This document shows, piece by piece, positions 4,601 through 59,765 of a DNA stretch of 64,000 bases. Position 1 is the stretch's first letter; every line of letters starts with the position of its first letter. The position numbers and the translations under genes were made by a program. The DNA comes from Brachionus manjavacas. Taxonomy: Eukaryota > Rotifera > Eurotatoria > Ploima > Brachionidae. The notes beneath the pieces are model-generated. The model saw only the letters and a program-made list of their open reading frames with translations. It did not search any database and was not told the origin of the DNA. Where the stretch lies: the NCBI GenBank assembly GCA_019054805.1, contig JAHQIY010000009.1, forward strand, positions 3,658,001-3,722,000, written 5' to 3'.

Positions 4601-7374
4601 AATTAAGTACCAGAGCCTATCCGGAAATGTGAATTTTAATAAAAATCTTCCAAAAATGACAGAATTGAGCTTTTTAAACTTCGATGATGAAAAAAGATGA
4701 AACAAAATATGTTTCACTAAATAGAACAAAAAACGATTAAATAAATGATCAAAATATCAATATTTTGTAATTTATTTATTTACTGTCTCTATGATTCATT
4801 TTGGACAGAATTTTTTTATTCATTTTGTAAATTTATTTTATTTAAATGTTAAATCCTATCATCGTTACAATTGTAAAAATTTTAATTTTTCAATTTTAAG
4901 CTCACATACAATTTGATTAAAAACAATCAATTTATTAATTTTTTTTCTTAAACTAGAGTGTTAAATGAATCATTGTTTGTTCAACCTTTTAAAACTTACG
5001 CAAAAATCTTAAGTACAAAATCAATGTTTTTATGGCATTGTGAGTTTTGGAACAAAGAACAGATACAAAAATTTTAAAATGAAATAACTTTTTTACAATA
5101 AGTCCATAAATTGATCTGCAAAATGTATCAGCTGATACAAACTTTGTACCATACAAATTAAATTTCTGCAAAAACTCTGCAAGTCTGCAAAGCACTACTT
5201 GTATTTGATAATCATTAAAATTAAATTGCAGAGTTATTACAGAGACTTAATTTGGGTGGCATAAAGTTTGAATCAGCTGATACACTTTGCAGAGCAATTT
5301 TTAGACTAACACTGTGATGAAGACATCACTGTGTATGTACGCGGTTCGCTGTGCAGTTGCATTCACGCGTATTTCATATTTATATTTTATATTTATTTAT
5401 TTTATTTATTTCATTTTTCCTCATATTTCTTTTATATAATGTGATTTATATTTCCGCCCGGTGTTCAGTCTACGACGACGACCGGGCCCGGTTTTTCTTT
5501 TTAGAATTAATAAAGTTTTTATGACTTAAAATAAATAGTTTACTTTATTTTAAACACTAAATAAAGTTATTTCATTTTAAAAATTTTTTTAAGAATTTAA
5601 ATTTTTTATTGGAATTTTTGTAAGAAAATTTGCAAGATGAAGAATTGTTAATTGAAATTCAGGCTATAGTTGCGTCTAACATTAAAGAAAGAGACAGTGG
5701 ACTAAAATCAAAAGATTCAAATTTTCTAACAAAAAGGCAGCTAATTAAATATAATTAATTAAAAATCTTAAATTTTTTTAAACGTTATAATTAGTTTTGT
5801 TATTAATAAAATATTGAAATTTGATGCGTTAATTTTAAACAATTAAAGTTTTGACAGAAAAAAAAATAATTTCATAAAAAAAATTAAAGACAAGTGAAAG
5901 AAAAAACTGAAATTTTCTTTTGCTATTCAATTATTTAAAAATCTTTTCAATGAGATGTTAAGTAGTAAACTTTCTTTTCACTTTTTTTTTTAACTTATAT
6001 TTTTATTTTATTTTTTTTTTTTATCTTCTTTTATTAACTCTATTTTTGTTTTAATTTTTTTTATAATTTATTCTGAAGGAGCTCTAGCTCGGTACAGAAA
6101 ACAAATAAATAAATAAGTGCTCATTTATTTTATATATTTTTTTTCGATTTCTTGTCTATCAAATTATTTCTTTATCTTGTAAAAATATTTTTATATAGTG
6201 TTTTGTCTTTTTTTCGATTCCTCAGAAATTATGTTACCTTTTTATTATTTTCTCATTATTTTTTTTAAAATAAATTAAATTTTGCTATGAATTAATTAAA
6301 TAATTAAAAAAATTAAATAAAAAAAACGAAGTCCTTTTAGCTTCTCGGGTTTAAGTTTAATTTGATTTTCAATTAAAATGGACCTTTTTTTTTACCTTTA
6401 AAATCAGTGTTGGAAGTTTTTCCTGAAATACTTAGTGGATCAAAGGATTAAAAAAAAACGTCCATAGCAACTCTGAATACAACAGAAAGAAGAATGAATG
6501 AAAATTTTATTTACCGGTCTACCAGATGACGGATCAATAAAGTCAGCCCAGCAGCCTTCTTTTTCAAACACCGAGCACAGCTCTTGAGCAGTATCGACAA
6601 ATTTTTTGATCAAAATTTCTCTCTCATTGTCAACAAGGTCGTTCCAAGTGGCCATGTCGTTCTCTGTCTTGAACGAAATAGTCAGCACAGTCAGACTTAA
6701 TTCGTCAATAGAGTTAGAGCGGAAATAATTTTGAAAATCTATCAAGAAATTAAACAAATTTTTCTTTCCTTTTTATTTAGAAAAAAAATCTCACCTTTGG
6801 CTAACGACAGAGGGCATTTCACAGCCTTGAGCTCGAAATGATTCTTCTTGAGGCCCAAAGCATCCAAATTTAGCAAACTGTTTTCCATTTTTTCTTTCAA
6901 GTAAAAAGCTCCACACGCTTCTTTCAGCTTGTTGGCTTGATTATCTATCGGTAGCGGTCTGTTTAATAGATAACTTAAATTCTCCTGTTTGACCGAATTG
7001 TTTTCTGAAGGTTTGAAAAGTTTCAAATTTTTTTCCTTTTGCTCTTCGACAAAAACACCAGTTTGGCCAGGTAATGGAAAATCACTAGTTCTGTTTATTT
7101 GTTTGGCTAGTTCAGACCAGTTTTGCTCCGACCACACGCTTACCTCTATAAAGTTTAAAAGTGTTAAAATTAAATTTTAATCAAAAGCATCAAAAATTCA
7201 TCCCACCGTTGTTCAGAATGGAAAAAATTCCCGACCTAGTTCTGCTAAACGATGAGAGTTTTCTGCAGTTGATTAAGAAGAGCACGTTACGGCTTGATTG
7301 ATTAAGCTTAAAAAAATAAATATAAAAATGATGACGTAGATATACAAAGGTTAATAGCTAACCAAACTAGACAT
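1673..7374 (-). CDS. mmadhc: MMADHC (cobalamin trafficking protein CblD), five exons
   Basis: MMADHC (CblD) works with MMACHC to route vitamin B12 to cytosolic methionine synthase or mitochondrial methylmalonyl-CoA mutase. I assembled the exons by eye: 7363-7374, 7207-7306, 6795-7145, 6515-6738 and 1673-1879. Every junction is GT-AG and the phases agree (0, 1, 1, 0). The sum is 894 bp or 297 residues, against 296 in human. Diagnostic segments are VWSEQNW at the start of exon 3, GCWADFIDPSSG at the end of exon 4, and DERYRKLGF, GCCKVI and ASPDS in the last exon. The basic, hydroxylated N-terminus encoded by exon 2 would suit a mitochondrial targeting peptide. Introns 1-3 are 56-61 bp, but intron 4 is 4,635 bp (1880-6514) and packed with repeats. 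The four-residue first exon is the weakest part of the model; exons 3-5 are strong. A poly(A) signal AATAAA overlaps the stop codon region. Confidence 0.9.
3180..3350 (+). repeat. Inverted-repeat partner of 8729-8895
   Basis: About 165 bases here recur in reverse complement at 8729-8895, including the shared block ATGAATCCGCTCACTCCTCA and flanking ATCGATGTAACAT. The two copies lie 5.4 kb apart, one inside MMADHC intron 4 and one beyond the gene's 5' end. Several AACTCGATGA/TCATCGAGTT words recur inside each copy. It may be a dispersed MITE family or the two ends of one large element. Confidence 0.6.
3500..4240 (+). pseudogene. LINE 3' end remnant with low-complexity ORF pieces
   Basis: The frame at 3707-3928 encodes FLLNRVADNWNNL followed by NLFKKRVDD, the pattern seen at the extreme C-terminus of jockey/CR1-like LINE reverse transcriptases. 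It is followed by a short stem (AAGCT, loop, AGCTT) and a TTATTATTATTG microsatellite, as expected of a LINE 3' tail. Immediately upstream, 3509-3694 is a Ser/Thr/Glu-rich frame, and 3963-4237 is an open frame without a start codon. I cannot assign these two; they may be pieces of a broken LINE ORF1. All lie in intron 4 of MMADHC on the opposite strand. Confidence 0.55.
4245..4485 (+). repeat. Dispersed repeat carrying LINE-type tail hairpin, copy 1
   Basis: Roughly 240 bases match 5955-6215 in direct orientation. The centre holds the hairpin GAGCTCTAGCTC (4333-4344) followed by GGTACAG and an AAATAAATAAATAA run, a signature shared by at least nine other sites in the window. The duplicated sequence continues past the run, so this is more than a simple LINE 3' end. 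Confidence 0.75.
5096..5316. mobile_element. Foldback MITE in MMADHC intron 4
   Basis: The left part (about 5099-5155) and right part (about 5255-5313) are inverted copies of each other. Both contain the palindromic core TGTATCAGCTGAT flanked by TCTGCAAA on one side and CAAACTTT on the other. Total length is about 220 bp. I cannot define a target-site duplication. Confidence 0.6.
5312..5600 (+). repeat. Possible solo-LTR fragment with GC-rich hairpin
   Basis: The stretch begins TGTGATGAAGACATCAC, the same palindromic style as the LTR start of the 27.5-31.5 kb element. It contains TATATAATG and AATAAAG words and a GC-rich hairpin, CCCGGT with ACCGGG near 5457-5490, followed by a T run. Its end is not defined. 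The LTR call is tentative. Confidence 0.3.
5955..6215 (+). repeat. Dispersed repeat with LINE-type tail hairpin, copy 2
   Basis: Direct duplicate of 4245-4485, with hairpin GAGCTCTAGCTC at 6079-6090 preceded by TTCTGAAG. It differs mainly by small indels in the T and A runs. It lies about 300 bases from the donor site of MMADHC intron 4. Confidence 0.75.
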
Positions 7375-20119: not shown

Positions 20120-20476
20120 GGTTGTGAAGTTCGTTTCAATTCGATCATTTCAATTCAAAAAAAATTGAATAACTTTTTTACTAAAAGTGAAAATTCAATT
20201 CTGTAAAATGCTTAATTATAAGCAAATTTGCTTAATGCAGTAAAATAAGTCTGCAAAATACTCTGCAATTTTCTGCATTTTGCACCCTATTAAAAAGTAT
20301 TCCAATCAAGTGTGCAATTACATTGCAGAGTTTTTGCAGACATATATTTTTGAATTAAGCAAAGTTGCTTAACCATTGAGCATTTTACAGAACTAAATTA
20401 TCTCTTTTAGTAAAAAAGTTATTCAAGTTTTTCTGAATTGAAACGATCGAATTGAAATGAACTTCACAACCCCCTG
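20120..20476. mobile_element. hAT-like MITE
   Basis: AAAATTGT at 20112-20119 and 20477-20484 forms an 8-bp target duplication. The inverted arms are about 120 bases, beginning GGTTGTGAAGTTC and ending GAACTTCACAACCCCCTG. The right end CAGGGGG matches hAT ends; the left end has lost the outermost CAGGG. No coding sequence is present. A one-sided relative is near 55796-55825. Confidence 0.8.
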
Positions 20477-25815: not shown

Positions 25816-26437
25816 GGGTCCTACTAAAATACTGACCCCCAATTTTTTAAATTTTCTGACCCCCATTTATTTTGCAAAGCAAAAATATTTTTAAAAGTTT
25901 TAATTTATCATTTAGTTTGAATTTTTCTCTATTTTTTGAAAATTAAACTAGTTTGTCTCCAAATTTTTTTTTTTTTGTGAAAATCGAATATTTTTATACT
26001 TTTAAAAACCTGACCCCCAACTGACCCCCATTTTTCTTGAAGAGAATTTAACAAGCTTTCCAAAAATGTATTAAAATATCGTATTAAAAATTTTAATATC
26101 CGATTTCAGAATAACTAAGGTCTTTTATTATAATCAAAATATCTCAAAAACTATACATCCTGGAGAAAAACTAGGCACATTTTTGGAAAGCTTGTTAAAT
26201 TCTCTTCAAGAAAAATGGGGGTCAGTTGGGGGTCAGTCGTAAAAAATTGGGGGTCAGTAGGGGGTCAGGTTTTTAAAAGTATAAAAATATTCGATTTTCA
26301 CAAAAAAAAAATTTTTGGAGACAAACTAGTTTAATTTTCAAAAAATAGAGAAAAATTCAAACTAAATGATAAATTAAAACTTTTAAAAATATTTTTGCTT
26401 TGCAAAATAAATGGGGGTCAGTATTTTAGTAGGACCC
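25816..26437. mobile_element. Long-arm foldback element (GGGTCCTAC family), copy 1
   Basis: A 622-bp unit with inverted arms of about 255 bases, beginning GGGTCCTACTAAAATACTGA and ending in its inverse. Subterminal TGACCCCCA words repeat within each arm. GCTATATC occurs on both sides (25808-25815 and 26438-26445), an 8-bp target duplication, and the related locus at 51281-51293 shows the uninterrupted site. No coding sequence. A transcript would form a very long hairpin. Confidence 0.92.
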
Positions 26438-27110: not shown

Positions 27111-27121
27111 TGTTTATTATC

Positions 27122-27459
27122 CAGACTTGTTTTTTAGTCACAGTTTTAAGTCAGAGTCACAAAAAATTAAGCCAAAATAATGACTTGACTTAATTTTTTT
27201 TTTTATAATTAACAATCACAAAAATCATAAAATGTTAAAAAATTAAATTCTATTTCTTTAAGAAATGTATCACCTATTAATAAATGCGCGTTATTCAACA
27301 CATTATATATTTTTTTTCTGAAGGCTGAACCTAATGGATAAATGTAGATAACTCTGACCGATATAATTTTAAGATTTTGGTTTATTTAGAAATTTATTTC
27401 ATTAAAAAAAATTTAAGTCATTGACTTTACTTATGACTTGTGACTTAAAAACAACTCTG
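27122..27459. mobile_element. CAGACTTG MITE, copy B
   Basis: CAGACTTG at the left and its inverse (ACTCTG variant) at the right are flanked by TTATTATC at 27114-27121 and 27460-27467. The 338-bp interior is rich in AAGTCA words. Confidence 0.85.
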
Positions 27460-33490: not shown

Positions 33491-34357
33491 TTATTTTTTG
33501 TGTTTGAATTACAAAATGTATCCAATGTTGAAATAACGTTGAAAAAGTGCGATTTTTCAAATATATTTTTCAGTTTCAAAAAAAAACAATTTTAAGTATA
33601 TTTAATAAGCATGAAAAACTTTGTATTTTTTTTATAAATTTTGACTTTAGATTTGTGTTATGATGATCCTTAAGATAATATTTGGAGTTGAAAAAACTAT
33701 CTACGCTCTGTTTTCCATTTCCGTCAATTGAGTTTTTGTTAAGATGCATTAAACGAAAGTCTTAAGAATAACAAAGATTTCATGTCTAGGCGATTAGGGA
33801 AACTGGTTTACCTGTTCCTGGAACAAAAAAAGTCAAGTCAATGACTTAAAAATATTTTTATTTTTTTTTAAGTCAAGTCAATGACTTAAAATTTTTTTTT
33901 TTTTAAGTCAAGTCAATGACTTAAAAATTTTTAAGTTTAAAAAATCGGTAAAAAAAAAGCGGCAAGTCAAAGTTACGGTCAACATTGTGGCGGGCGGTCA
34001 TTTAGCCGTTCAGCTTGGCGGCCAGAATTTGGGACTGTGGCGCTGAAAAAAAAGATGCCAAAATATCATAAAAAATTAAAAAGTTAAGAAAATTAAATAT
34101 GTTTATTAATTAAAAAAAAACCATAATTTTATTAAAAAAAAAAAACCAACGGCCAACAATCATCCACTACCAATAATACTCAATTTTAATGAAATAAATA
34201 ATTAAAAGTATTTCTAATCTAACTCATGACTTTGACTTAAAAAAAAAAAAATTTTAAGTCATGACTTTGACTTAAAAAAAAAAAAAAAATTTTAAGCCAT
34301 GACTTTGACTTAAAAAAAAAAAAAAAATTTTAAGTCATGACTATTTTTATTCTGAAG

Positions 34358-34478
34358 GAGCATAAGCTCGGCACTAAATAAATTATTTAATAGTTAAAAA
34401 AAGAATTTCAACTTCATTTTTTCAAATTTCCAAACAAAAATTAAACTCATTCTATTTCACCAAAGAGTTTAAATTCAA
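34358..34478 (+). repeat. LINE-tail block, first of two direct copies
   Basis: TTCTGAAGGAGCATAAGCTC (hairpin GAGC-ATAA-GCTC) and about 110 following bases recur at 35484-35606. The hairpin loop differs from other copies in the window while the stem is kept. Confidence 0.75.
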
Positions 34479-34527
34479 ATAAAAAATTTTCGCCCAACTT
34501 GCTCGTTATATCGAGGATTGACTGTAC

Positions 34528-34941
34528 ATATATTTTAGTGATTTGACCAGTCGCCATTTTTCTCAATTACAATTTCAATTACCCAATTTATCAAAATTAA
34601 TATTTTAAAAAGCCAAAAACTTTAATTTAAATTTCAACCTTTTTCAGATGATTTACTTTTGTACTTTTGAAAATTTTGTTTTTGTTGACGAAACAACAAT
34701 GCGCCTTTCACAGAGACCAACTTATCATCTAAGGTATCGCTCAAAATATCCAAATGCTTTACCGAGTACGTCCAAATATGAAGGAAAGCTTAATATTTGG
34801 GCTGGTATTTCTCATAAAGGGGCTACAAATATTGGAGTTTGAATTTTTTCTACTTTGCATTGTTTGATATTCAAGGAAAACATGAATTTAGTGTTATACA
34901 GGAAAATAATGTCAGATTATTTGTTACCATTTGGTGCATTT
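34528..34941 (+). mobile_element. Tc1-like element fragment
   Basis: Begins at the terminal sequence CATATATTTTAGTGATTTGA next to a pogo-type end (GAGGATTGACTGTA, 34510-34527). It contains the frame 34648-34842 with FVDETTMRL (first catalytic Asp) and WAGISHKGATNIG. It breaks off at 34941 where AAGTCA repeats resume. It matches the Tc1 copies at 41381-41999 and 45636-46254. Confidence 0.8.
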
Positions 34942-35483
34942 GGTACAAAAAATTTTAAGTCATGACTTTGACTTAAAAAAAAAAAAATTTAAGTCAAGTC
35001 ATGACTTTGACTTAAAAAAAAAAAAAAAATTTTAAGTCATGACTTAGACTTAAAACTGTGACTTAAAAACAAGTCTGAATTTTTTAATCTATTTAGAAAA
35101 ATTTGCGAAATAGATGAATCCTTGTTCCCCAAAGTCAAACACTTGACGGGTGAAAAATTAATTTTAAATTTCTTTAATTTTTATTATTTATGTTTTAAGG
35201 CAGAGATTTAAGAAGAGGGGGCATTTAGGTATTCGGGATTGTTTAAAGGGTAATATCAGGTCAACCAGATCCGAGCAAATGCTATTTCTAAAGCTCTTTC
35301 AAATTAAAAAAAATATATCTACTTTAATTGTTTATTTTTATATCAGTTTCGAAAATTAGGCATTCTATTAAATAACTTAATTCAATTTGTTCACAAAATC
35401 TAAAACTTTAATCTGAATGAATTATTTTTCTTTTGCTTTTTTTTTTAATTCATTTTTTATTTTCAAATATTTTTATTCTGAAG

Positions 35484-35606
35484 GAGCATAAGCTCGGCAC
35501 TAAATAAATTATTTAATAGTTAAAAAAGAATTTCAACTTCATTTTTTCAAATTTCCAAACAAAAATTAAACTCATTCTATTTCACCAAAGAGTTTATATT
35601 CAAATA
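35484..35606 (+). repeat. LINE-tail block, second direct copy
   Basis: Near-identical to 34358-34478, including GGAGCATAAGCTCGGCAC and the following TTTCAACTTCATTTTTTC stretch. Confidence 0.75.
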
Positions 35607-37369: not shown

Positions 37370-38183
37370 AGCTTAAATTATAATTTTGAAATTATGAAAA
37401 CAAAAAATTTAGCTTTATTTTTATGAAAATATTGAATGCTAATTTGAGACAACAAATAATTTGAATTGTTAAGCTTATTGTTTTAAAAGAGTAGATATAA
37501 GCGTGGTAATTTTTTCTTTTCAAATTTTAAATGCTTGTCACCAATGCTTTATCTACAAGGGGTAAAATTAGACTTGTCTCTTTAGATGACTAATTTTTTT
37601 AAAAGTAAATATCAGCAAGGAAAATTTGTCTTTTTGCAATCTCCGGTCAGAGTTGCTTGAAATTAGTTGAAATTATAAAATCAAGGCACTACCCGGTTAT
37701 GTTATCATGCGGATAACAAAAAATGTTATGAAGGAAAAATGTTATCAAAAAACTTTAAAGAAAAAACCAGTTATTATTAGAAAAATTATTGTAAAAAAAT
37801 ATCATTAAAAAAAATTTGAAAATTGTAAAAATGAATATTGCTTTTTTTTATGAGTGCGGGACATATGTACAGTACTGATTTGTTCCAGTGGTTTTACCAA
37901 AATTTACGCGAATTTACCAAAATTGTTAGTAAATTTACGGGAATTCCGGTAATTTTACGTAAAATCGCAAAGTGAAAAAAAAGTGAAAAACATTTAATTT
38001 AACTGAATTCCCGTAAATTTACCAGAATTTAACGGATTTTCCGTAAAATTTCGTAAAAACCAAAGGGGCCAAAAAAATCAAAATTTTTGCAATTTTTTCA
38101 CTTTTTTTAGTTGTTTTTCAAAATTATTAAAAAAATTAAAAAAAAAAAATTGTATTTTTTTTCCCAAATTTTCGTAAATTTTT

Positions 38184-41100
38184 GAGTGAATTTATTTAAA
38201 CACAAATTGTGGATAAATATCTTGTTTTATCGCACACAATTTACCTGTAAATAAACAAAAAAATTTTCTTGTGTATATAAAATAATTAGTTATTTAGCCA
38301 CAAATTGACAATATTTTTTGTTTATTCTTTACATTGAAATCCATCAAAAAAATATAATTGAAGCTCATCAAATCAATTAATTAGGAATAAGCTTGAATAA
38401 GAACATATAAAATATAAGAAATGGCTCCTTATCTATCATCATTCTTAAATCAAAATGGAAAACGAATTTTACATTGGAAGAGTTTTCGATTCTTTCGACG
38501 ACTTTATCGAGCTATTGAACGATTACTCAAAGCAATCATATTCAATATGGAAAAAATTTAACAGCAAAAAAATTGACGAAGAAAATGGTACTCAATACAA
38601 GTTTGTTCATTTGAAATGCGTTTACCATCGTGACGAAAAAGACATAACAACCAAATCGAAAGGAACAAGGCCGATTCAAGGCTATGTAGCGCCATGCAAT
38701 TGTTTGACTGAAATCAGAGTAAACTACGTCATATCAGGTCGACACAAAGACAAATACGAAATAACAAAGTGCGATTTAAAACATCAACGTATAAATAAAG
38801 AGACAAAACAACTCGAAGAAGCTCACAGGCTCAATCAAGAAGACTATGCGAAGCATCCAAGCAATAGACGTTTAACAGAAGAAGAAGAGCGAGAAATTTA
38901 CGAACATTTTGAAACAGGAGGGGATGCAAAGATGATAGCTATGACAATGAGTCAAAAGACGAACAAATGGCTAACAACTCGTGACATGTGGAACGTTCGG
39001 AAAAAATTATCAAAAAAAAATATAACCAAGGACGATCACCCGTTAAAAGCTTTCGAAAACGTGATGAACGAAAGAATCAAAATAGATAACCACAACAACT
39101 TCAAACTCGTATACGATGAAGTTAACGCGAAAACATTGTTAATGGTGTATTATCAAAGTATACAAATGAAACAGTTATACGCACAATATGGAGAGATACT
39201 TTTTATTGATGGTACATATAGTTTGAATCACAACAACTACCCAGTTTATTTAATAGTTGTTCGTGACTGCAATGGTAACTCTCAAATCGTAGCGTTTGCA
39301 ATAGTAGCATACGAAAGACAACTTTTACTCGATCGATTTATTGACATATTTAGACAGCTAAACGAAATTAAACAAACTCGGACTATTATGATTGACAAAG
39401 ATTTAACCGAGTGGAACGTGTTAACCAAGTATTTACCGGATGCCGACATATTTTACTGCAAGTTTCATTGTATACAAATATTTCGTCGATCAATCAAGAA
39501 CAAAGAGTTAGAACCCATCCTTACAGCTTTGTTAAACTGCGAGACTGAGATCAGCTTTCAAGAATCTTATAATGATTTATTAAAAGCAATTGATTGGCGT
39601 GACAAGACATATCTCGAAAACAACTGGTTAAAAGAAGAACAACTTGATATGTGGGTGAAATACAAGAGACTTGGTAAAATAACGCTCGATAATGATACAA
39701 ATAACTCGGTCGAAACACTCAATGGTCTCCTTAAAAGTTTTATCAAGTCGAAAACAACTTTAGACAAGTGTTTACTTGGCATTTTTAAATTGGACGACTA
39801 TTTACGTACAAAATATTCATTCAACGATTTTAACCAGCGTACCAAAATTATAATCGATCGCAGTAGCCAAAAGGATAAACAAGCTGACGTAATTTACAAA
39901 CTTTTCACACCGTACGCAGCACAAATTGTTAACGATTCCTATGGTTTGACAAGCAAAATAACATATAAAATCGTATATGATGGTGAAAATGTTACACTAT
40001 CTTCTGACAAAAACAGTTCGATCGTATCTGATTATAATAGTGATAAGCCATCGTGCAACTGTTTCGATTTTACTTGTAGTTTATTCCCATGTCGTCATAT
40101 TTTATATATACGCAAACATCACAATTTAACCATAATTACGCGAGATATGGTTCATCAACGATGGTTAAATCGAAAATTTGATAACGCACAACTTCAAGTA
40201 TTGGATGATCAAGTCGAGTGTTTATCATATGTCAATATAAATAGTATTGTCTCAAAGCCTAATCCCAATAAACCAAAGTCATCCAAATCTGATTCGAATT
40301 CACGATTCAATGAATGTAAACGGATAATGAATGAAATTGCTCAACTTGTGTCTGGAGATTCAGAGGACGTTTTTCATGATCGCATGGAACAGCTCTTAAT
40401 GATTAAAGAAATGTGGGAAAAAAACATCAACTTTACACTCAAGCCGATTGAAAGCTCAAATGTCGAAGATAAAGTTACTCCAGATGATATTTCAACTTAT
40501 AATGCGATCGAGATCAATGATGACAAATCGATCGATGAGCCAATTTCAATTGATGAACCTAAATCAGTCGATATAGAAACGGAGATTTTAGATGAAAATG
40601 TCGAAAAAATAAGTTTAGCATCGATTGAATTAGCAAAAGATGTGCCAAAACGAGGAGCTCCTACTTTGAAGGAACGTAAACGAAAAGCCAAAGCAAACAC
40701 AATTACAACACAACGGTCAAAATCAATCAAATTAAATGACGACAGCGAGTTAAAAGAATTTTTTACTCAAATTCTACTCGATGAATTCAAGCCAAGTGTA
40801 GATAGTTTCATTTCAAAAGAGCGTGTCGTCGATGAAGAGCATATACAAGTAATACCTTCGAAAATTAATCCTAGTGTACTTAGTTGTGCTTTTGTGAATG
40901 AAAATAATGAAATATCTTCTTTAGTTTCAAGTTTCTTCACTAGTGATGCTCTCTTAATGTTGCAAAATACATTATCAGCATTAAGATCACATGGTCAATT
41001 AAATTCTTGCAACTCTTGTTCTTTATCTTGCGACTCTAAGTTTATCGTTTGTAGTTCTTGTAATAATTATTTTCATTTAAAATGTGTTAAAAAAGCTTAT

Positions 41101-41296
41101 GCTCCTAAGATTAAAAAATGGCTTTGTGCTAATTGTAACTCTAATTAATTAATCTAAATTTGTTAATCTTATTTTTTTTTATTTTTTAATATAACATGTG
41201 TCTAAATAAATAAAAAAATTTCAAATCCACATCCACTTTTTGTGTGTATCAATTTTTGTTTATTTATCCATAAAATTTGTGAAAATAAACGCTACC
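38184..41296 (+). mobile_element. Autonomous-looking MULE with 9-bp target duplication
   Basis: TAAATTTTT at 38175-38183 and 41297-41305 flanks a 3,113-bp unit. Ends GAGTGAATTTATTTAAACAC and, inverted, GGTAGCGTTTATTTTCACAA continue into TGGATAAATA-type sequence, giving imperfect inverted repeats of about 40 bases. It contains a single long transposase ORF without a stop. Confidence 0.82.
38455..41148 (+). CDS. Mutator-like transposase with SWIM and PHD-like zinc fingers
   Basis: The 897-residue product looks complete. The N-terminal ~110 residues form a FAR1/FLYWCH-like DNA-binding region with Cys/His pairs. The MULE catalytic domain follows: EILFIDGTYSLN (first Asp, about residue 251), DADIFYCKFHC (second, about 328) and NNSVETLNGLL (Glu, about 419). 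A SWIM finger, CNCFDFTCSLFPCRH, is at about 533-547. After a low-complexity Ser/Asp/Glu region and a basic PKRGAPTLKERKRKAK stretch, the C-terminus (about 851-896) has CNSCSLSC...CSSCNNYFHLKC...WLCANC, a PHD-type C4HC3 pattern. MULE transposases cut and paste DNA in the nucleus; a PHD finger could tie targeting to histone marks, which is inference. The intact frame suggests recent activity. Confidence 0.93.
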   Translation: MENEFYIGRVFDSFDDFIELLNDYSKQSYSIWKKFNSKKIDEENGTQYKFVHLKCVYHRDEKDITTKSKGTRPIQGYVAPCNCLTEIRVNYVISGRHKDKYEITKCDLKHQRINKETKQLEEAHRLNQEDYAKHPSNRRLTEEEEREIYEHFETGGDAKMIAMTMSQKTNKWLTTRDMWNVRKKLSKKNITKDDHPLKAFENVMNERIKIDNHNNFKLVYDEVNAKTLLMVYYQSIQMKQLYAQYGEILFIDGTYSLNHNNYPVYLIVVRDCNGNSQIVAFAIVAYERQLLLDRFIDIFRQLNEIKQTRTIMIDKDLTEWNVLTKYLPDADIFYCKFHCIQIFRRSIKNKELEPILTALLNCETEISFQESYNDLLKAIDWRDKTYLENNWLKEEQLDMWVKYKRLGKITLDNDTNNSVETLNGLLKSFIKSKTTLDKCLLGIFKLDDYLRTKYSFNDFNQRTKIIIDRSSQKDKQADVIYKLFTPYAAQIVNDSYGLTSKITYKIVYDGENVTLSSDKNSSIVSDYNSDKPSCNCFDFTCSLFPCRHILYIRKHHNLTIITRDMVHQRWLNRKFDNAQLQVLDDQVECLSYVNINSIVSKPNPNKPKSSKSDSNSRFNECKRIMNEIAQLVSGDSEDVFHDRMEQLLMIKEMWEKNINFTLKPIESSNVEDKVTPDDISTYNAIEINDDKSIDEPISIDEPKSVDIETEILDENVEKISLASIELAKDVPKRGAPTLKERKRKAKANTITTQRSKSIKLNDDSELKEFFTQILLDEFKPSVDSFISKERVVDEEHIQVIPSKINPSVLSCAFVNENNEISSLVSSFFTSDALLMLQNTLSALRSHGQLNSCNSCSLSCDSKFIVCSSCNNYFHLKCVKKAYAPKIKKWLCANCNSN

Positions 41297-41380
41297 TAAA
41301 TTTTTATTGATTTTAGTGAAAAATAGTAAAAAAATGGAAAAATTTAAATTAAGTTTTTTTAATATTGAAATTATTAAATA

Positions 41381-41999
41381 CATGTATTTTAGTGATTTGA
41401 CCAGTCGCCATTTTTCTCAATTACAATTTCAATTACCTAATTTATCAAAATTAATATTTTTATATTTTATATTTGCTTATTATTTTACCCATTTAGTTTT
41501 GTTTATATCTAAAAATGATCTGCATAATAAACTACTGTGTTTAGGATCATTGTCTTGATGCAACTGAAATTCCGAATCGAATTTACTTGCACCAAATGGT
41601 AACAAATAATCTGACATTATTTTCCTGTATAACACTAAATTCATGTTTTCCTTGAATATCAAACAATACAAAGTAGAAAAAATTCAAACTCCAATATTTG
41701 TAGCCCCTTTATGAGAAATACCAGCCCAAATATTAAGCTTTCCTTCATATTTGGACGTACTCGGTAAAGCATTTGGATATTTTGAGCGATACCTTAGATG
41801 ATAAGTTGGTCTCTGTGAAAGGCGCATTGTTGTTTCGTCAACAAAAACAAAATTTTCAAAAGTACAAAAGTAAATCATCTGAAAAAGGTTGAAATTTAAA
41901 TTAAAGTTTTTGGCTTTTTAAAATATTAATTTTGATAAATTGGGTAATTGAAATTGTAATTGAGAAAAATGGCGACTGGTCAAATCACTAAAATATATG
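41381..41999 (-). mobile_element. Tc1-like element, left-arm copy
   Basis: 619 bp with inverted ends of about 74 bases (CATGTATTTTAGTGATTTGA... outward) and TA at both sides (41379-41380, 42000-42001). Two frames (41684-41878, 41480-41671) hold FVDETTMRL and HQDNDPKHSS, the first and second catalytic Asp of the Tc1/mariner DDE domain. A TGA separates them, and the N-terminus and third catalytic residue are missing, so it is a non-autonomous derivative. Confidence 0.87.
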
Positions 42000-42001
42000 T
42001 A

Positions 42002-42106
42002 CAGTCAATCCTCGATATAACGAGCAAGTTGGGCGAAAATTTCGTTGCTCGTTATATCGAAACTCGTTATATCGAAATTGCATTGAAAAAGATGGGCAAA
42101 AAAATT
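42002..42106 (+). mobile_element. pogo/Tigger-type end, left-arm copy
   Basis: TA-CAGTCAATCCTCGATATAACGA followed by repeated GCTCGTTATATCGA words is a typical pogo terminal sequence. It is interrupted after ~100 bases by the LTR at 42107. The inverse copy is at 45529-45633; a third end is at 34495-34526. Confidence 0.7.
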
Positions 42107-42432
42107 TGTAATACACCCTACGTATCACTTCATCATCAGCTTCTCAACTGATGCGCAATGATAAGAAAGAATTAATACAATTGTCACGTATCTCATAAGA
42201 TAGACGCTTCTAGATGCTGATATAAACATTTATATAATAGCTCACATCTTGTCTTAATTATAAGCCCGTGTTCTTGACACGAACTCATGGGTATAAATAA
42301 TGATTCCATTCTCAGTGCTTAGAGAGATATTTTTAGGGATTTTACTAATTATATAAATTGTTAGAGCTCAACAATTATTTAATAAACTATTCAAAAGTAT
42401 ACTTGTTTTATCATTCATTAACCCGCCTTACA
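42107..42432 (+). repeat. LTR of retrotransposon in the palindrome, left-arm copy
   Basis: 326 bp starting TGTAATACACCC and ending CGCCTTACA (TG...CA). Directly after it TCTTGGTAGCAGCGATAAG is a plausible primer-binding site. The inverse copy is 45203-45528, so the two LTRs face each other instead of lying in the same direction. Confidence 0.75.
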
Positions 42433-43236
42433 TCTTGGTAGCAGCGATAAGTAAAAATGTCCACAATGAGTTTCTTTTCATTGCCAATACCCATGGAATA
42501 TTGCGAAAGTTTGCCCGTTCAGGCACTTGTTCACATGGTAAAAGCTCAGAACCACTTGGAAACCTCGTCAAGAATACAGTTGCTGAGTGTATTCTTGTAC
42601 ATTGTCACCTGAAAGTTTACATTCCAATTGTTTAATATCACAGGTATCGAAAATTAAGTTTGATTTGCTTTTCAAGGTAACTCTTTTAACAGTACACACA
42701 AATCCATAACTCATTACAGGTCTAAGCCACTTGAATATTTCTTTAGGAGTACCATCAAATATACAATCATCATTCTCACAGGACATTTTTGATCCTTCAC
42801 ATGTCCTTGAACTTACCATATTTTCAAATTCTTTCTTACCAATTTCCTCCTTATGAATGCTTTTTGATGAGCTTCTTGAACCAAACAGGTCTCTTTCCAT
42901 AACAGACTTTCTGTATGGTCTGATATAGATTGGGGTGTATTCTGTTAGCTTAATGATATGCTTGTCGACATTAGATTTTTTAAGATCTCTTACTTCTGCT
43001 GCGAATCTATCTTTAATAGCATCAATAGCTTGCCTGAAGTGGTTGAGGTCATTATCTTTTAGGTCCTCTTGTGGTTTAATAACCAATTTAGTTTTGATTT
43101 TTCTAGAGGCCATTCTTCCTCGGACAGTTCAAAATCATCAGCGAATTTGATACTACACGCTTCTTCCGTGAGCAGTGTTTCCATTTCGTCTTCATCCGAG
43201 TTCATCAAGATTATATCGCTCGGAAATTTTATCAAT
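42433..43236. mobile_element. Leader joined to inverted 3' part of the retrotransposon
   Basis: 42433-42563 is leader sequence reading plus. At 42564 it is joined to an inverted copy of 44399-45071, seen as the minus-strand frame 42568-43113. The last 57 leader bases (ending AGAACCACTTGGAAACC) recur at 43238-43294 before gag. This is the inner end of the left arm. Confidence 0.75.
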
Positions 43237-43237
43237 T

Positions 43238-44009
43238 TTGTTTGCCCGTTCAGGCACTTGTTCACATGGTAAAAGCTCAGAACCACTTGGAAACCGATTT
43301 TCACTACCTTCAGGAATATGGAACATTAGTAAATGGCTCAGAAGTAGAACAAGCTGATTGGTTGGAGAAAATAACGCTACTAAAGCTCCTAAGAAACTTT
43401 TAACTAGTCTTCTGACCCAAAGAGCGGTACTTGTAGCAAAGAAAAAGGAACAACCAGATGCAAGCGATCAAAATAAATCGACACCCCAATCAAGCTTATC
43501 AATTAAGATCCGAATTAAAGGCAATCAAATTGGACGCGAATTATGAGGAAAATGTTCTGAAATTCCAGCAAATTGCCAACAAAATCGAAAAAATAGATGA
43601 GTTCGAGTTGGTATGGATGTTTTTTGACGCGGTTGACCCCCGCGTTAGAGCTGAGTTGGAAAGCAAAAATGTCAAGACACTTGACGATGCTATAACTCAA
43701 GCTAGGATATTCAGTAGGAGTACGTGGAGTGTTAATAAGCCAGTACCCGTTTATTATTCAAGAAACAATTATAAGAAGCGCTTAAAATCATTCTATAACT
43801 TAAGAGAGAAAGAAGTTGATAGAGGAAAAAACTTAAATAATAAAACAGATGATAGAGGTAAAATCCCTGTCTGTTACAGATGTAAAAAACCAGGTCACAT
43901 TAAAGCAGATTGCAAAGTGAAATTGTTTAGCGGCGAGAACAATAACAAATCAAATTATGGAAGGAATCAGAACAAAGGAAAATGGAGCAACCCGAAGAAA
44001 TCATACTAA
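43238..44009 (+). pseudogene. Retrotransposon gag with zinc knuckle, frameshifted
   Basis: The main frame 43458-44009 (183 residues) includes EFELVWMFFDAVDPRVRAEL and a nucleocapsid zinc knuckle CYRCKKPGHIKADC followed by a basic Asn/Lys-rich tail. An upstream frame from 43358 overlaps it, and the sequence before that lies in yet another frame, so gag is broken by frameshifts. Gag packages the element's RNA. It lies in the unpaired centre of the palindrome and therefore exists in one copy. Confidence 0.78.
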
Positions 44010-44018
44010 GCAGAAGAA

Positions 44019-44576
44019 ATGGAAGAACCAGAGTCAAACAATCGTAATCGTGATACTGAATACGTATACGTTTGCACAACAGGTAACTTACTGAGAATAA
44101 ATGGTCTTGTAGACGGTAAACCAGTTAAGTTCGCTATCGACAGCGGATGCACAAGCTCTATTATTTCAAGTAAAACTGTTAATAATTTTGGATTAAGAAT
44201 TTTACCATCCAGTTCGAAAATTAAAACAGCTGATAATACAATAAGCATGGTAGTCGGCAAAACAGAAAAAATAAAACTGGACATTCAGGGTCATGTATGC
44301 TTAATGGAGTTTTTGATAATAGGCCACGAGGATAACGATGGACTTTTAGGTCTCGATTGGTTTATGCAAACAGGTGCTAGTCTTAATCCTAGTCAAAAAT
44401 TGATAAAATTTCCGAGCGATATAATCTTGATGAACTCGGATGAAGACGAAATGGAAACACTGCTCACGGAAGAAGCGTGTAGTATCAAATTCGCTGATGA
44501 TTTTGAACTGTCCGAGGAAGAATGGCCTCTAGAAAAATCAAAACTAAATTGGTTATTAAACCACAAGAGGACCTAA
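44019..44576 (+). pseudogene. Retropepsin-like protease of the nested retrotransposon
   Basis: The frame has PVKFAIDSGCTSSIIS, with DSG in place of DTG at the active site, and DNDGLLGLDWFMQTGA, the usual retropepsin C-terminal motif. The acidic tail after it (MNSDEDEMETLLTEEA) is the start of a spacer. The 3' part is in the right arm and is repeated inverted at 43059-43236. Confidence 0.78.
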
Positions 44577-45067
44577 AAGATAATGACCTCAACCACTTCA
44601 GGCAAGCTATTGATGCTATTAAAGATAGATTCGCAGCAGAAGTAAGAGATCTTAAAAAATCTAATGTCGACAAGCATATCATTAAGCTAACAGAATACAC
44701 CCCAATCTATATCAGACCATACAGAAAGTCTGTTATGGAAAGAGACCTGTTTGGTTCAAGAAGCTCATCAAAAAGCATTCATAAGGAGGAAATTGGTAAG
44801 AAAGAATTTGAAAATATGGTAAGTTCAAGGACATGTGAAGGATCAAAAATGTCCTGTGAGAATGATGATTGTATATTTGATGGTACTCCTAAAGAAATAT
44901 TCAAGTGGCTTAGACCTGTAATGAGTTATGGATTTGTGTGTACTGTTAAAAGAGTTACCTTGAAAAGCAAATCAAACTTAATTTTCGATACCTGTGATAT
45001 TAAACAATTGGAATGTAAACTTTCAGGTGACAATGTACAAGAATACACTCAGCAACTGTATTCTTGA
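44522..45067 (+). pseudogene. pol-start fragment fused to an unassigned ORF
   Basis: The 181-residue frame begins with KHIIKLTEYTPIYIRPYRKS, the segment that precedes reverse transcriptase in gypsy-type pol. It then passes without a stop into a Cys-containing stretch (SCENDDCIFDG...WLRPVMSYGFVC) that I cannot assign; it could be the 3' or envelope-like ORF of the element. The catalytic reverse transcriptase, RNase H and integrase are deleted. The inverse copy is 42568-43113. Confidence 0.6.
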
Positions 45068-45202
45068 CGAGGTTTCCAAGTGGTTCTGAGCTTTTACCAT
45101 GTGAACAAGTGCCTGAACGGGCAAACTTTCGCAATATTCCATGGGTATTGGCAATGAAAAGAAACTCATTGTGGACATTTTTACTTATCGCTGCTACCAA
45201 GA

Positions 45203-45528
45203 TGTAAGGCGGGTTAATGAATGATAAAACAAGTATACTTTTGAATAGTTTATTAAATAATTGTTGAGCTCTAACAATTTATATAATTAGTAAAATCCCT
45301 AAAAATATCTCTCTAAGCACTGAGAATGGAATCATTATTTATACCCATGAGTTCGTGTCAAGAACACGGGCTTATAATTAAGACAAGATGTGAGCTATTA
45401 TATAAATGTTTATATCAGCATCTAGAAGCGTCTATCTTATGAGATACGTGACAATTGTATTAATTCTTTCTTATCATTGCGCATCAGTTGAGAAGCTGAT
45501 GATGAAGTGATACGTAGGGTGTATTACA
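45203..45528 (-). repeat. LTR of nested retrotransposon, right-arm copy
   Basis: Inverse of 42107-42432. The adjoining leader (45072-45202) is also inverted. Confidence 0.75.
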
Positions 45529-45635
45529 AATTTTTTTGCCCATCTTTTTCAATGCAATTTCGATATAACGAGTTTCGATATAACGAGCAACGAAATTTTC
45601 GCCCAACTTGCTCGTTATATCGAGGATTGACTGTA

Positions 45636-46254
45636 CATATATTTTAGTGATTTGACCAGTCGCCATTTTTCTCAATTACAATTTCAATTACCCAATTTAT
45701 CAAAATTAATATTTTAAAAAGCCAAAAACTTTAATTTAAATTTCAACCTTTTTCAGATGATTTACTTTTGTACTTTTGAAAATTTTGTTTTTGTTGACGA
45801 AACAACAATGCGCCTTTCACAGAGACCAACTTATCATCTAAGGTATCGCTCAAAATATCCAAATGCTTTACCGAGTACGTCCAAATATGAAGGAAAGCTT
45901 AATATTTGGGCTGGTATTTCTCATAAAGGGGCTACAAATATTGGAGTTTGAATTTTTTCTACTTTGTATTGTTTGATATTCAAGGAAAACATGAATTTAG
46001 TGTTATACAGGAAAATAATGTCAGATTATTTGTTACCATTTGGTGCAAGTAAATTCGATTCGGAATTTCAGTTGCATCAAGACAATGATCCTAAACACAG
46101 TAGTTTATTATGCAGATCATTTTTAGATATAAACAAAACTAAATGGGTAAAATAATAAGCAAATATAAAATATAAAAATATTAATTTTGATAAATTAGGT
46201 AATTGAAATTGTAATTGAGAAAAATGGCGACTGGTCAAATCACTAAAATATATG
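45636..46254 (+). mobile_element. Tc1-like element, right-arm copy
   Basis: Inverse of 41381-41999, with transposase frames 45757-45951 and 45964-46155 in the same register but separated by a TGA. Ends CATATATTTTAGTGATTTGA at the left and its inverse at the right. Confidence 0.85.
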
Positions 46255-46359
46255 TATCTAATAATTTCAATATTAAAAAAACTTAATTTAAATTTTTCTT
46301 TTTTTTAACTTTTTTTCCCTTTTTTTTTACTATTTTTCACTAAAATCAATAAAAATTTA

Positions 46360-47647
46360 GGTAGCGTTTATTTTCACAAATTTTATGGATAAATAAACAA
46401 AAATTGATACACACAAAAAGTGGATGTGGATTTGAAATTTTTTTATTTATTTAGACACATGTTATATTAAAAAATAAAAAAAAATAAGATTAACAAATTT
46501 AGATTAATTAATTAGAGTTACAATTAGCACAAAGCCATTTTTTAATCTTAGGAGCATAAGCTTTTTTAACACATTTTAAATGAAAATAATTATTACAAGA
46601 ACTACAAACGATAAACTTAGAGTCGCAAGATAAAGAACAAGAGTTGCAAGAATTTAATTGACCATGTGATCTTAATGCTGATAATGTATTTTGCAACATT
46701 AAGAGAGCATCACTAGTGAAGAAACTTGAAACTAAAGAAGATATTTCATTATTTTCATTCACAAAAGCACAACTAAGTACACTAGGATTAATTTTCGAAG
46801 GTATTACTTGTATATGCTCTTCATCGACGACACGCTCTTTTGAAATGAAACTATCTACACTTGGCTTGAATTCATCGAGTAGAATTTGAGTAAAAAATTC
46901 TTTTAACTCGCTGTCGTCATTTAATTTGATTGATTTTGACCGTTGTGTTGTAATTGTGTTTGCTTTGGCTTTTCGTTTACGTTCCTTCAAAGTAGGAGCT
47001 CCTCGTTTTGGCACATCTTTTGCTAATTCAATCGATGCTAAACTTATTTTTTCGACATTTTCATCTAAAATCTCCGTTTCTATATCGACTGATTTAGGTT
47101 CATCAATTGAAATTGGCTCATCGATCGATTTGTCATCATTGATCTCGATCGCATTATAAGTTGAAATATCATCTGGAGTAACTTTATCTTCGACATTTGA
47201 GCTTTCAATCGGCTTGAGTGTAAAGTTGATGTTTTTTTCCCACATTTCTTTAATCATTAAGAGCTGTTCCATGCGATCATGAAAAACGTCCTCTGAATCT
47301 CCAGACACAAGTTGAGCAATTTCATTCATTATCCGTTTACATTCATTGAATCGTGAATTCGAATCAGATTTGGATGACTTTGGTTTATTGGGATTAGGCT
47401 TTGAGACAATACTATTTATATTGACATATGATAAACACTCGACTTGATCATCCAATACTTGAAGTTGTGCGTTATCAAATTTTCGATTTAACCATCGTTG
47501 ATGAACCATATCTCGCGTAATTATGGTTAAATTGTGATGTTTGCGTATATATAAAATATGACGACATGGGAATAAACTACAAGTAAAATCGAAACAGTTG
47601 CACGATGGCTTATCACTATTATAATCAGATACGATCGAACTGTTTTT
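46360..47647 (-). pseudogene. MULE remnant, right-arm copy (C-terminal third)
   Basis: The 333-residue frame 46508-47509 equals the last third of the 897-residue transposase, from MVHQRWLNRKF to the PHD-like end. Upstream sequence to 47647 includes the SWIM region. About 1.8 kb of the MULE 5' part is absent. At the break (47648-47667) sits a short stretch equal to the MULE insertion site, AAATCAATAAAAATTTA. Confidence 0.88.
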
Positions 47648-47980
47648 TTAAAATCAATAAAAATTTACGAAAATTTGGGAAAAAAAATACAATTTTTTTT
47701 TTTTAATTTTTTTAATAATTTTGAAAAACAACTAAAAAAAGTGAAAAAATTGCAAAAATTTTGATTTTTTTGGCCCTTTTGGTTTTTACGAAATTTTACG
47801 GAAAATCCGTTAAATTCTGGTAAATTTACGGGAATTCAGTTAAATTAAATGTTTTTCACTTTTTTTTCACTTTGCGATTTTACGTAAAATTACCGGAATT
47901 CCCGTAAATTTACTAACAATTTTGGTAAATTCGCGTAAATTTTGGTAAAATCACTGGAACAAATCAGTACTGTAATTAAA

Positions 47981-48261
47981 CAGACTTGTTTTTAAGTCAC
48001 AGTTTTAAGTCTTAGTAAGAAAAATTTAAGTCATAGTTATGACTTGACTTAATTTTTTTTTTTAGTCAAAGCCAATGTCTTACAAATTATTTTTTATTTT
48101 TTTAGTGAAGTTTAGTCGAGTCAACTAATTTTCTGATTTTAAAACTTAACTTTTTTTGGATTAAAAAAAAAAATCATTTAATCAATTTATTTTTTAGTTT
48201 TAAAATAAGAAAATTAGTTGACTTGACTTGACTTAAGACTTGTGAATTAAAAACAAGTCTG
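47981..48261. mobile_element. CAGACTTG MITE, copy C
   Basis: CAGACTTGTTTTTAAGTCAC at the left and AAACAAGTCTG at the right, flanked by TAATTAAA (47973-47980) and TAATTAAG (48262-48269), 7 of 8 matching. It has inserted directly beside the right end of the palindrome. Confidence 0.82.
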
Positions 48262-48407
48262 TAATTAAGCAACCGGGGCCTTCCATATATTTTACGTCAA
48301 AGTAAAGACATTTTTCGTTATCCGCATGATAACAAAACCGGAGGTGACCAGTTTGATAACAAAATATGTTATCAGCTGATAACATAAGCGGGTAGTCCCA
48401 AAATCAA

Positions 48408-58771: not shown

Positions 58772-59765
58772 TTTTGTGTTTGAATTACAGAATGTATACA
58801 ATGTTGAAATAACATTGAAAAAGTACGATTTTAAAAAATTATTTTCTTCAGTTTCAAATAAGAAAAACAATTCAAAGTTAATATTGCAAACATGAAAAAC
58901 TTTGAGTTTTTTTTATAACTATGACGTTGGGTTTGTGATATGATGATCCTTAAAGATAATGTTAAAAAACTTTCTATTTTCTGTTTTGCATTTTTCATAA
59001 ATTAAGTTTTTGTTAAAAAGCACCAAACGAAAGTAAATTATTACATATGTCAAAATTATATACGAAGAAAACAAAGTTTTTCGGGTCTAGTCCCTTAGGT
59101 AAACTATGGTTCACCTGTTCCTGGAACGATTCTTGTTCTCAGGTTTCATGAACTATTAGTTCACCTAATTCAAATAAGCTAATGTATTGATAAAAAATAA
59201 GATAGAATAAATAATTACATAGAAAATTTAAAGTTGGGCGGAAGGGAAATATTTGCGAAATATATAGATCTTTGTTCCCCAAAGTAAAACACTTAAAATG
59301 TGAAAAATTAATTTTAGCAATCTTTAATTTTTATTATTTTATACCAGAGTTTTTTTTAAGTCACAATTCTTAAGTCAAGTCAAGTCAATGACTTAAATTT
59401 TTTTTTTTTTAGTGAAGTTTAGTCAAGTGAACTAATTTTCTGATTTTTAAACTAAAAAATAAATATTATTTTTTATTTTAATCCAAAAAAAGTTTAGTTT
59501 TAGAATCAGAAAATTAGTTGACTCGATTAAACTTCACTAAAAAAATAAAAAAAAATTTTAAGACATTGGCTTTGACTTAATAAAAAAAAATTAAGTCAAG
59601 TCATAACTTTGAATTAAATTTTTGTGACTTAGACTAAAAACTGTGACTTAAAAACAAGTCTGTTTTATACTGAAAGGCAAATATTTAAGTAGAGAGCGCA
59701 TTTGGGTAATTGGGATTTTTCAATGTTAGTTCAATATTGGATACATTTTCTTATTCAAACACAAA
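58772..59765. mobile_element. Long-TIR DNA transposon (R family), copy 2
   Basis: Left end TTTTGTGTTTGAATTACAGA and right end (inverse) TTGTGTTTGAATAAGAAAAT, with internal blocks shared with 33497-35728. No transposase is visible. A CAGACTTG MITE sits inside it. Confidence 0.78.
59345..59662. mobile_element. CAGACTTG MITE, copy D
   Basis: CAGAGTTTTTTTTAAGTCAC at the left and AAACAAGTCTG at the right, flanked by TTTTATAC at 59337-59344 and 59663-59670. It is nested in the R-family transposon. Confidence 0.87.

Follow-up and report, generated by a model that had tools for sequence, protein, structure and literature searches.

How a short transposon bounded by terminal inverted repeats (TIRs) can come to possess inverted arms several kilobases long, filled largely with the sequences of other transposons, is the question raised by an ~10-kb palindrome in the genome of the rotifer Brachionus manjavacas. 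The palindrome is located in a 64-kb window (C9:3658001-3722000; GC content 28.5%) of an assembly of 114 Mb in 61 contigs, and the positions below are those of the window. The locus was examined by self-comparison, by comparison with fetched loci of the same repeat families (L numbers), and by DNA searches of the genome in which the best 40 candidates were scored per search, so that copy numbers are lower bounds. None of the titles listed in searches of open-licence literature, most of which gave only the first part of their matches, concerns this locus. The palindrome probably originated in the misrepair of a break within a nested element, during which the left side was copied in inverted orientation and joined to the native right end.

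Architecture of the palindrome

The whole element spans 37870-47972 and has CAGTACTG at both ends (37870-37877 and 47965-47972) with TA just outside. In the self-comparison, the inner arms aligned in inverted orientation with 99.2% identity over 3252 columns, interrupted by four mismatches and one 21-bp gap, and the outer blocks (37868-38202 and 47641-47974) with 97.6% identity. The arms resolve into three ungapped pairs: 41315-43239/44396-46320 (1925 nt), 40009-41334/46322-47647 (1326 nt) and 37868-38183/47659-47974 (316 nt). Within the inner arms, identity is unbroken for 1855 consecutive bases from the inner end and for 1326 from the outer end. This likeness is far beyond chance, and the inverse arms around a centre that were described in an initial annotation of the DNA are confirmed as a real palindrome. 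The annotation also had the symmetry end at TA-CAGTACTG: the termini and the TA are present, but the ends that it gave are displaced by 1-2 bases.

The inner arms contain the 3′ part of a Mutator-like element (MULE), DNA of a host element that resembles a miniature inverted-repeat transposable element (MITE), a pogo-like end and the 5′ portion of a long terminal repeat (LTR) retrotransposon; of these, the MULE, pogo and LTR sequences had been recognized in both arms by the annotation. On the plus strand, the left half reads left TIR, MULE, host, pogo-like end, LTR, d, filler′, X′ and D′; from the middle onward the order is second d, gag-protease, D, X, filler, d′, LTR′, pogo-like′, host′, MULE′ and right TIR, in which d, D and X are retroelement pieces and primes denote inverted copies (Table 1). 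Judged from the sequence, the symmetry is of two origins: the outer ~316 bp are native TIRs, and the inner arms are an inverted duplication inside the host element.

Table 1. Features of the palindrome and of its detached copy (window positions;., no strand)
Feature	Position	Strand	Basis or remark
Detached third copy (T) of 41588-42042	34484..34938	-	454/455 identical; 3 kb outside the element
TA target-site copies	37868..37869 (left), 47973..47974 (right)	.	flank the termini CAGTACTG
Native left TIR of host MITE-like element, up to MULE insertion point	37870..38183	+	matches family copies elsewhere
9-bp target-site duplication (TSD) TAAATTTTT of MULE	38175..38183 (left), 41297..41305 (second copy)	+	sequence read
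Full-length MULE (3113 bp) within left TIR	38184..41296	+	family match boundaries, Pfam, ends and TSD
Left inner arm of inverted duplication	40009..43239	+	self-comparison
Inner host part beyond MULE	41306..42001	+	internal order unlike most fetched family copies
Sole stretch where inner arms differ	41329..41384	+	21-bp indel and 4 mismatches
Truncated pogo-like end inserted at TA	42002..42106	+	sequence read
5′ LTR (326 bp) of LTR retrotransposon, TG...CA	42107..42432	+	boundaries and paired LTRs in other loci
d, 56-bp retroelement stretch	42509..42564	+	again at 43240-43295, inverted at 45071-45126
48-bp filler, left	42565..42612	-	inverted copy of 45023-45070
X′, inverted distal retrotransposon piece	42613..42888	-	retrotransposon comparison
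D′, inverted retroelement piece	42889..43239	-	reverse complement of 44396-44746
Spacer between inner arms	43240..44395	+	second d, gag, start of protease frame
Right inner arm of inverted duplication	44396..47647	-	self-comparison
D	44396..44746	+	
D/X junction, internal retroelement deletion of about 2.9-3.0 kb	44746..44747	.	comparison with copies
X	44747..45022	+	
48-bp filler between X and inverted d	45023..45070	+	22 bp match L064:4689-4710
Inverted copy of 5′ LTR, facing left LTR	45203..45528	-	retrotransposon comparison
Inverted copy of MULE 3′ part, 1288 bp	46360..47647	-	frame 46508-47647, last 379 codons
Join of native right TIR to MULE interior	47647..47659	-	10 bp host (47649-47658), extra A (47648), then MULE 40009 onward
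Native right TIR with empty MULE site	47649..47972	-	comparison with family copies

The host element and its terminal repeats

When the left end of the element, including the start of the MULE, was used as a genome query, at least 74 matches were found in the best 40 of 148 candidates, some of which represent the MULE end. The host family was sampled with 14 fetched loci; where both ends are present, the copy is short, about 0.5-1.5 kb, and its TIRs are ordinary. All 25 matches to CAG[TG][AC]CTG printed for these loci adjoin TA, mutated ends being uncounted. With a conserved terminal motif beside TA at many genomic positions, the host element appears to belong to a TA-target TIR family, which we take from the TA and the CAG ends to be part of the Tc1/mariner-like superfamily.

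The TIRs were compared with 20 others from 13 of the 14 loci, with gaps ignored in the identities; the locus with a truncated TIR (L049) was omitted and six loci (L047, L051, L055-L058) contributed one TIR each. The left and right TIRs of the element differ at two of 315 compared bases, and have in common 18 private alignment columns, in 11 of which all 20 other TIRs are gapped. The private columns imply that the ends were homogenized at some time, the timing of which they do not give. They also favor the view that the whole left arm, TIR included, was copied once in inverted orientation to the terminus and that 1.8 kb then was deleted from the right arm. However, high TIR identity within a copy occurs in ordinary members of the family: in seven other copies, the two TIRs are 91.7-99.7% identical with gaps uncounted (99.7% in L052 and 98.4% in L045). 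Thus, the terminal symmetry is expected without any duplication.

In the five copies for which both ends were printed (L045, L046, L050, L053 and L054), the sequences adjacent to the TIRs differ between the two ends, whereas the same sequence is present in both arms here. The right inner arm therefore is not native. A palindromic structure as a trait of the whole host family was discarded, as the fetched two-ended copies have the small size and ordinary TIRs noted above and the junctions searched are unique to the locus. Separately, the internal order of the host DNA at 41457-41861 is unlike that of most fetched family copies, and the variant order is present in part in L049 and at C32:141061-141351. 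An earlier fold-back of this locus was considered for this region and dropped: as those two loci share parts of it, the order seems to be an older subfamily feature.

The MULE in the left repeat and the empty target in the right

Genome matches to the MULE family cluster with starts near 38184 and ends near 41296-41308. The termini, GAGTGAATTTATTT... and GGTAGCGTTTATTT..., are related and the TSD TAAATTTTT is present on both sides, although an exact-end search of the fetched loci did not find the exact ends in other copies. A stop-to-stop frame of 899 codons (38449-41148) includes ZSWIM1-3 RNaseH-like and MULE transposase domains above the Pfam cut-offs (PF10551, 55 bits against a cut-off of 27.6; PF21056, 100.7 bits against 27.2), and PHD-finger matches in the same frame remain under the cut-off. 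Across its 1288 bp, the MULE piece in the right arm has 99.5-99.7% identity with L011, L013 and L014, and with L012 it has 99.7% identity over 996 bp. The annotation proposed that the insertions came first and the arm duplication later. The nested MULE with its 9-bp TSD, and the MULE, pogo-like and LTR sequences common to both arms, bear out this order. Its suggestion that a small TIR element lost one half and was rebuilt with an inverted copy of the other is also supported, the lost half being the right inner one.

The right TIR is decisive here. Most of the fetched copies have CGTAAATTTTTATTGATTTTAGTGAAAAATAG, or a close variant of it, in the TIR. In the left TIR, the MULE interrupts the family sequence immediately after TAAATTTTT. 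In the right TIR, the family sequence continues for 10 bases (ATTGATTTTA) past the MULE insertion point and is followed by one A and then by the MULE from 40009. As the family sequence passes uninterrupted through the MULE target, the right TIR is the native, empty-site end, and as this end abuts the MULE interior, copying stopped inside the MULE and not at the transposon terminus to which the annotation had extended it. With the empty site retained, the missing 1.8 kb of the MULE is more plausibly sequence that was left uncopied, and the one-sided deletion invoked in the annotation is not needed. The uninterrupted empty site followed by host sequence would also be absent from a single copy of the entire MULE-bearing left arm, except where a MULE-free allele had served as template, and we regard such a whole-arm copy as very improbable. 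The TIR/MULE join pattern, searched with up to three mismatches as were all junction patterns, has a single genome match, which is this locus. The boundaries of the duplication, 40009 and 43239, are neither of them a transposon end, and alternative (reversed-end) transposition of the MULE or of the host element was discarded on this ground.

Elsewhere in the genome, the first ~220 and last ~510 bp of the MULE are side by side at no fewer than 22 places, forming short copies of ~760 bp (e.g. C10:623003-623761), and at four places (C19, C3, C22 and C8) the first and last parts are ~3 kb apart. These and the short copies mostly are 97-100% identical, and they constitute a recently active pair of autonomous and non-autonomous elements.

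The retrotransposon and the inversion joins

The center of the palindrome is derived from a retrotransposon that lies beside the pogo-like end, the latter label being presumptive. Gag zinc knuckle (PF00098) and aspartic protease (PF13975) domains scored above the Pfam cut-offs, and paired LTRs occur in three of five compared loci (L059, 100%; L061, 96.0%; L062, 99.2% over 266 bp), which together identify an LTR retrotransposon. A 3′ LTR in forward orientation does not remain in the element. The spacer includes a gag frame with the zinc knuckle (43437-44009) and the start of a protease frame (44010-44576), and is ~340 bp shorter at 43503-43505 than the copies with which it was compared. The LTR and leader in the arms are 95.0-98.7% identical to the best matches in 11 loci (L059-L069), with L059 matched in pieces only. 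As a separate observation, C46 contains 22 of the 40 listed matches to piece X (from 3231 to 147392), and related elements are densely arrayed there.

In four other copies (L061, L062, L064 and L065), about 2.9-3.0 kb separates D from X, which are contiguous here, and the D/X junction pattern has two genome matches, both of them the arm positions of this locus. The 48-bp filler also has two genome matches, one in each arm. Twenty-two of its bases are identical to L064:4689-4710 and to six others of the 11 fetched retrotransposon loci, the source being ~1 kb upstream of X; a second match of 11 bp, GCAACTGTATT, in 5 of the 11 loci could be due to chance. The combination seen here, of an inverted copy and a junction filler templated in part from nearby, is characteristic of a template-switch scar. 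The same filler join is present in both arms and therefore arose once and then was copied, whereas the join at 43239/43240 occurs once. These two observations require at least two inversion-type joins.

Probable repair of a break within the nested element

The structure is probably explained by a break in the nested element that was followed by fold-back or template-switch synthesis and by end-joining to the native right TIR, with at least two inversion-type joins. The starting point would have been a host MITE-like element that already held the MULE in its left TIR, the pogo-like element and the LTR retrotransposon, in which a double-strand break or fork collapse was misrepaired. The left end, in the retrotransposon, would have been extended or folded back with switches from D to X, from X to the 48-bp filler and from the filler to inverted d, after which its own left side may have been copied outward for ~2.6 kb until synthesis stopped at MULE position 40009. 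The end then was joined, with an A added, to what remained of the native right TIR, 10 bp past the MULE target; the join itself is visible, and end-joining is its presumed mechanism. The second inversion-type join, at 43239/43240, would have brought the inverted filler-X-D block and the second d into the left arm, either by copying from the right arm or in a second round of breakage-fusion or template switching.

There are precedents for the components of this scheme. Yeast cases in excerpts of PMC11724301 combine foldback synthesis at one end with end-joining at the other and with templated insertions. According to parts of PMC10164571, widely spaced inverted repeats in single-stranded DNA anneal to produce fold-back structures, dicentrics and gross rearrangements. 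Sections of PMC8277862 describe template switching within the TIR elements of animals and, for Ssk-FB4, 45 bp that were inserted de novo at a breakpoint.

A different origin, which we consider unlikely, is aborted gap repair after transposase excised the element from one chromatid, with synthesis templated by the sister switching sides and bringing left DNA into the right. Portions of PMC4168063 name gap repair that aborts, slips or switches template as a source of defective copies after cut-and-paste transposition, and the retention of matching ends and TA on both sides of the element agrees with such an event. Nevertheless, nothing is missing from the left side, although an excision would be expected to endanger both, and in the data excerpted from PMC8277862 the animal TIR elements that had captured DNA show breakpoints moderately skewed to the interior, which favors breaks within the element over excision.

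Several points count against break repair with fold-back synthesis. The yeast foldbacks in the excerpted cases mostly are ~5-34 bp (PMC11724301), far under the copy length here. Microhomology, judged by eye, amounts to 2 bp (AC) at D/X and is not evident at the TIR/MULE, X/filler, filler/d and D′/d joins. Outside one patch the inner arms are identical, for which they would have to be very young or to have undergone gene conversion later, and the patch itself, described below, is without an explanation in this scheme. Furthermore, the joins are read from the sequence, while we infer that copying ran outward, which lesion and enzymes were involved and in what order the steps took place. We view the locus as a complex break-repair scar and not as a new transposon class.

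Differences between the arms and the integrity of the assembly

The substitutions and ~21-bp indel reported in the annotation exist but are not scattered: those in the inner arms all are confined to 41329-41384, and two further differences (37891 and 38065) are in the outer TIR blocks. If four independent events were placed randomly, clustering this tight would be expected with P about 3e-5. In this patch, the right arm resembles most fetched family copies and the left arm is private, although L053, L056 and one end of L046 likewise are without much of the A/G tract; a genome search at up to three mismatches gave no second match to the left-arm version. The simplest guess is local repair or conversion in the left arm. 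Quasi-palindrome correction was examined for the changes at 41377 and 41384 and dropped, as by eye they are on opposite halves of a small palindrome.

The 3.2-kb arms are nearly without differences, as they would be if a chimeric fold-back read or mixed alleles had entered the assembly. However, a fold-back read would end in inverted left flank, whereas the right side here rejoins the native TIR and a different flank. Moreover, the right arm is family-like where the left is private, which argues against its being a mirror-image read of the left. An assembly or read artefact is thus highly unlikely, and the annotation was justified in disfavoring a simple assembly duplication.

A detached copy and the surrounding sequence

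A third copy of 41588-42042, designated T, is situated outside the element. Apart from T and the two arms, no full-length copy of this stretch was present among the best 40 of 1181 candidates, the next match, on C32, being 89% identical over part of it. Shortly before T lies a stretch of 140 bp, found again at 35468-35606 (98.6%), which is a dispersed repeat with other matches of 81-88%. The 140-bp stretch and the 455-bp arm copy together occupy ~605 bp (34342-34946) between two copies of a tandem-like repeat. This segment resembles another patch of DNA copied from nearby, as would be expected if several template switches had occurred here.

Other repeats are present in the vicinity. One (AGACTTGTTTTTAA..., ~47981-48262, ends judged by eye) starts a few bases beyond the right end of the palindrome and has relatives at 59415-59668 and 27116-27205. 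Shorter self-inverted palindromic repeats with 73-81% identity at 25856-26421, 20120-20471, 5101-5307 and 59367-59583 are perhaps unrelated foldback-like MITEs. A lipase gene adjoins the element, and its closest relatives among named proteins are in B. plicatilis (76%) and B. calyciflorus (49%).

Comparison with known systems

Because the MULE marks one TIR only, it can be read base by base which sequence is the native right end, which was copied and where the joins lie. The native parts of many inverted duplications are hard to tell. This locus, in an animal that is not among the usual models, is a well-resolved natural case of how a giant palindrome can arise from a nested transposon. The rearrangement is genuine, complex, and apparently either young or homogenized, and is ordinary in kind but unusual in clarity.

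Foldback-type transposons, among them FB4 and Galileo and reportedly also Tetris and Tm1, have in common with the palindrome very long inverted arms, a shorter spacer and intact termini. Structurally variable TIRs have been reported for FB4 and Galileo (excerpts of PMC8277862 and PMC4168063). However, foldback transposons form multi-copy families, whereas the searched junctions here are unique and the arms are largely other transposons. The term foldback element that was used in the annotation fits the shape, but not mobility as a 10-kb unit: the genome search for further copies with the same arm structure that it advised, conducted with three junction patterns at up to three mismatches, revealed matches at this locus only and no second copy.

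As in Pack-TIR gap-filling and FoSTeST, in the portions of PMC8277862 that describe them, nearby DNA has been copied into a TIR element by template switching with a de novo breakpoint insertion; by contrast, the captured DNA here is the element's own left half, inverted and 3.2 kb long. The inverted copy, the short filler templated from nearby and the end-joined other end parallel the foldback inversions and templated insertions in excerpts of PMC11724301 and PMC10164571, but the yeast foldbacks there are mostly of the short length cited above and the inverted-repeat cases produce dicentric chromosomes and gross rearrangements.

The two LTRs face each other across the spacer, and LTR-started or read-through RNA could fold into a long hairpin containing the retrotransposon and, beyond it, the MULE. 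It is conceivable, if doubtful, that the locus is a natural multi-target silencer in which this hairpin RNA would feed small-RNA silencing of intact MULE and retrotransposon copies. The Mu killer locus of maize, in which a segment of a Mutator-type transposase gene is duplicated in inverted orientation, is said to be a precedent for hairpin RNA silencing. Both loci possess a partial, inverted Mutator-type transposase gene from which hairpin RNA is possible in principle. Unlike Mu killer, the arms described here also span an LTR retrotransposon and reside in an animal instead of a plant. If the silencing interpretation were true, the palindrome would be an animal counterpart of Mu killer directed at two families, and such loci, if they are transcribed, would offer genomes an uncomplicated route to a trigger that silences several mobile elements together.

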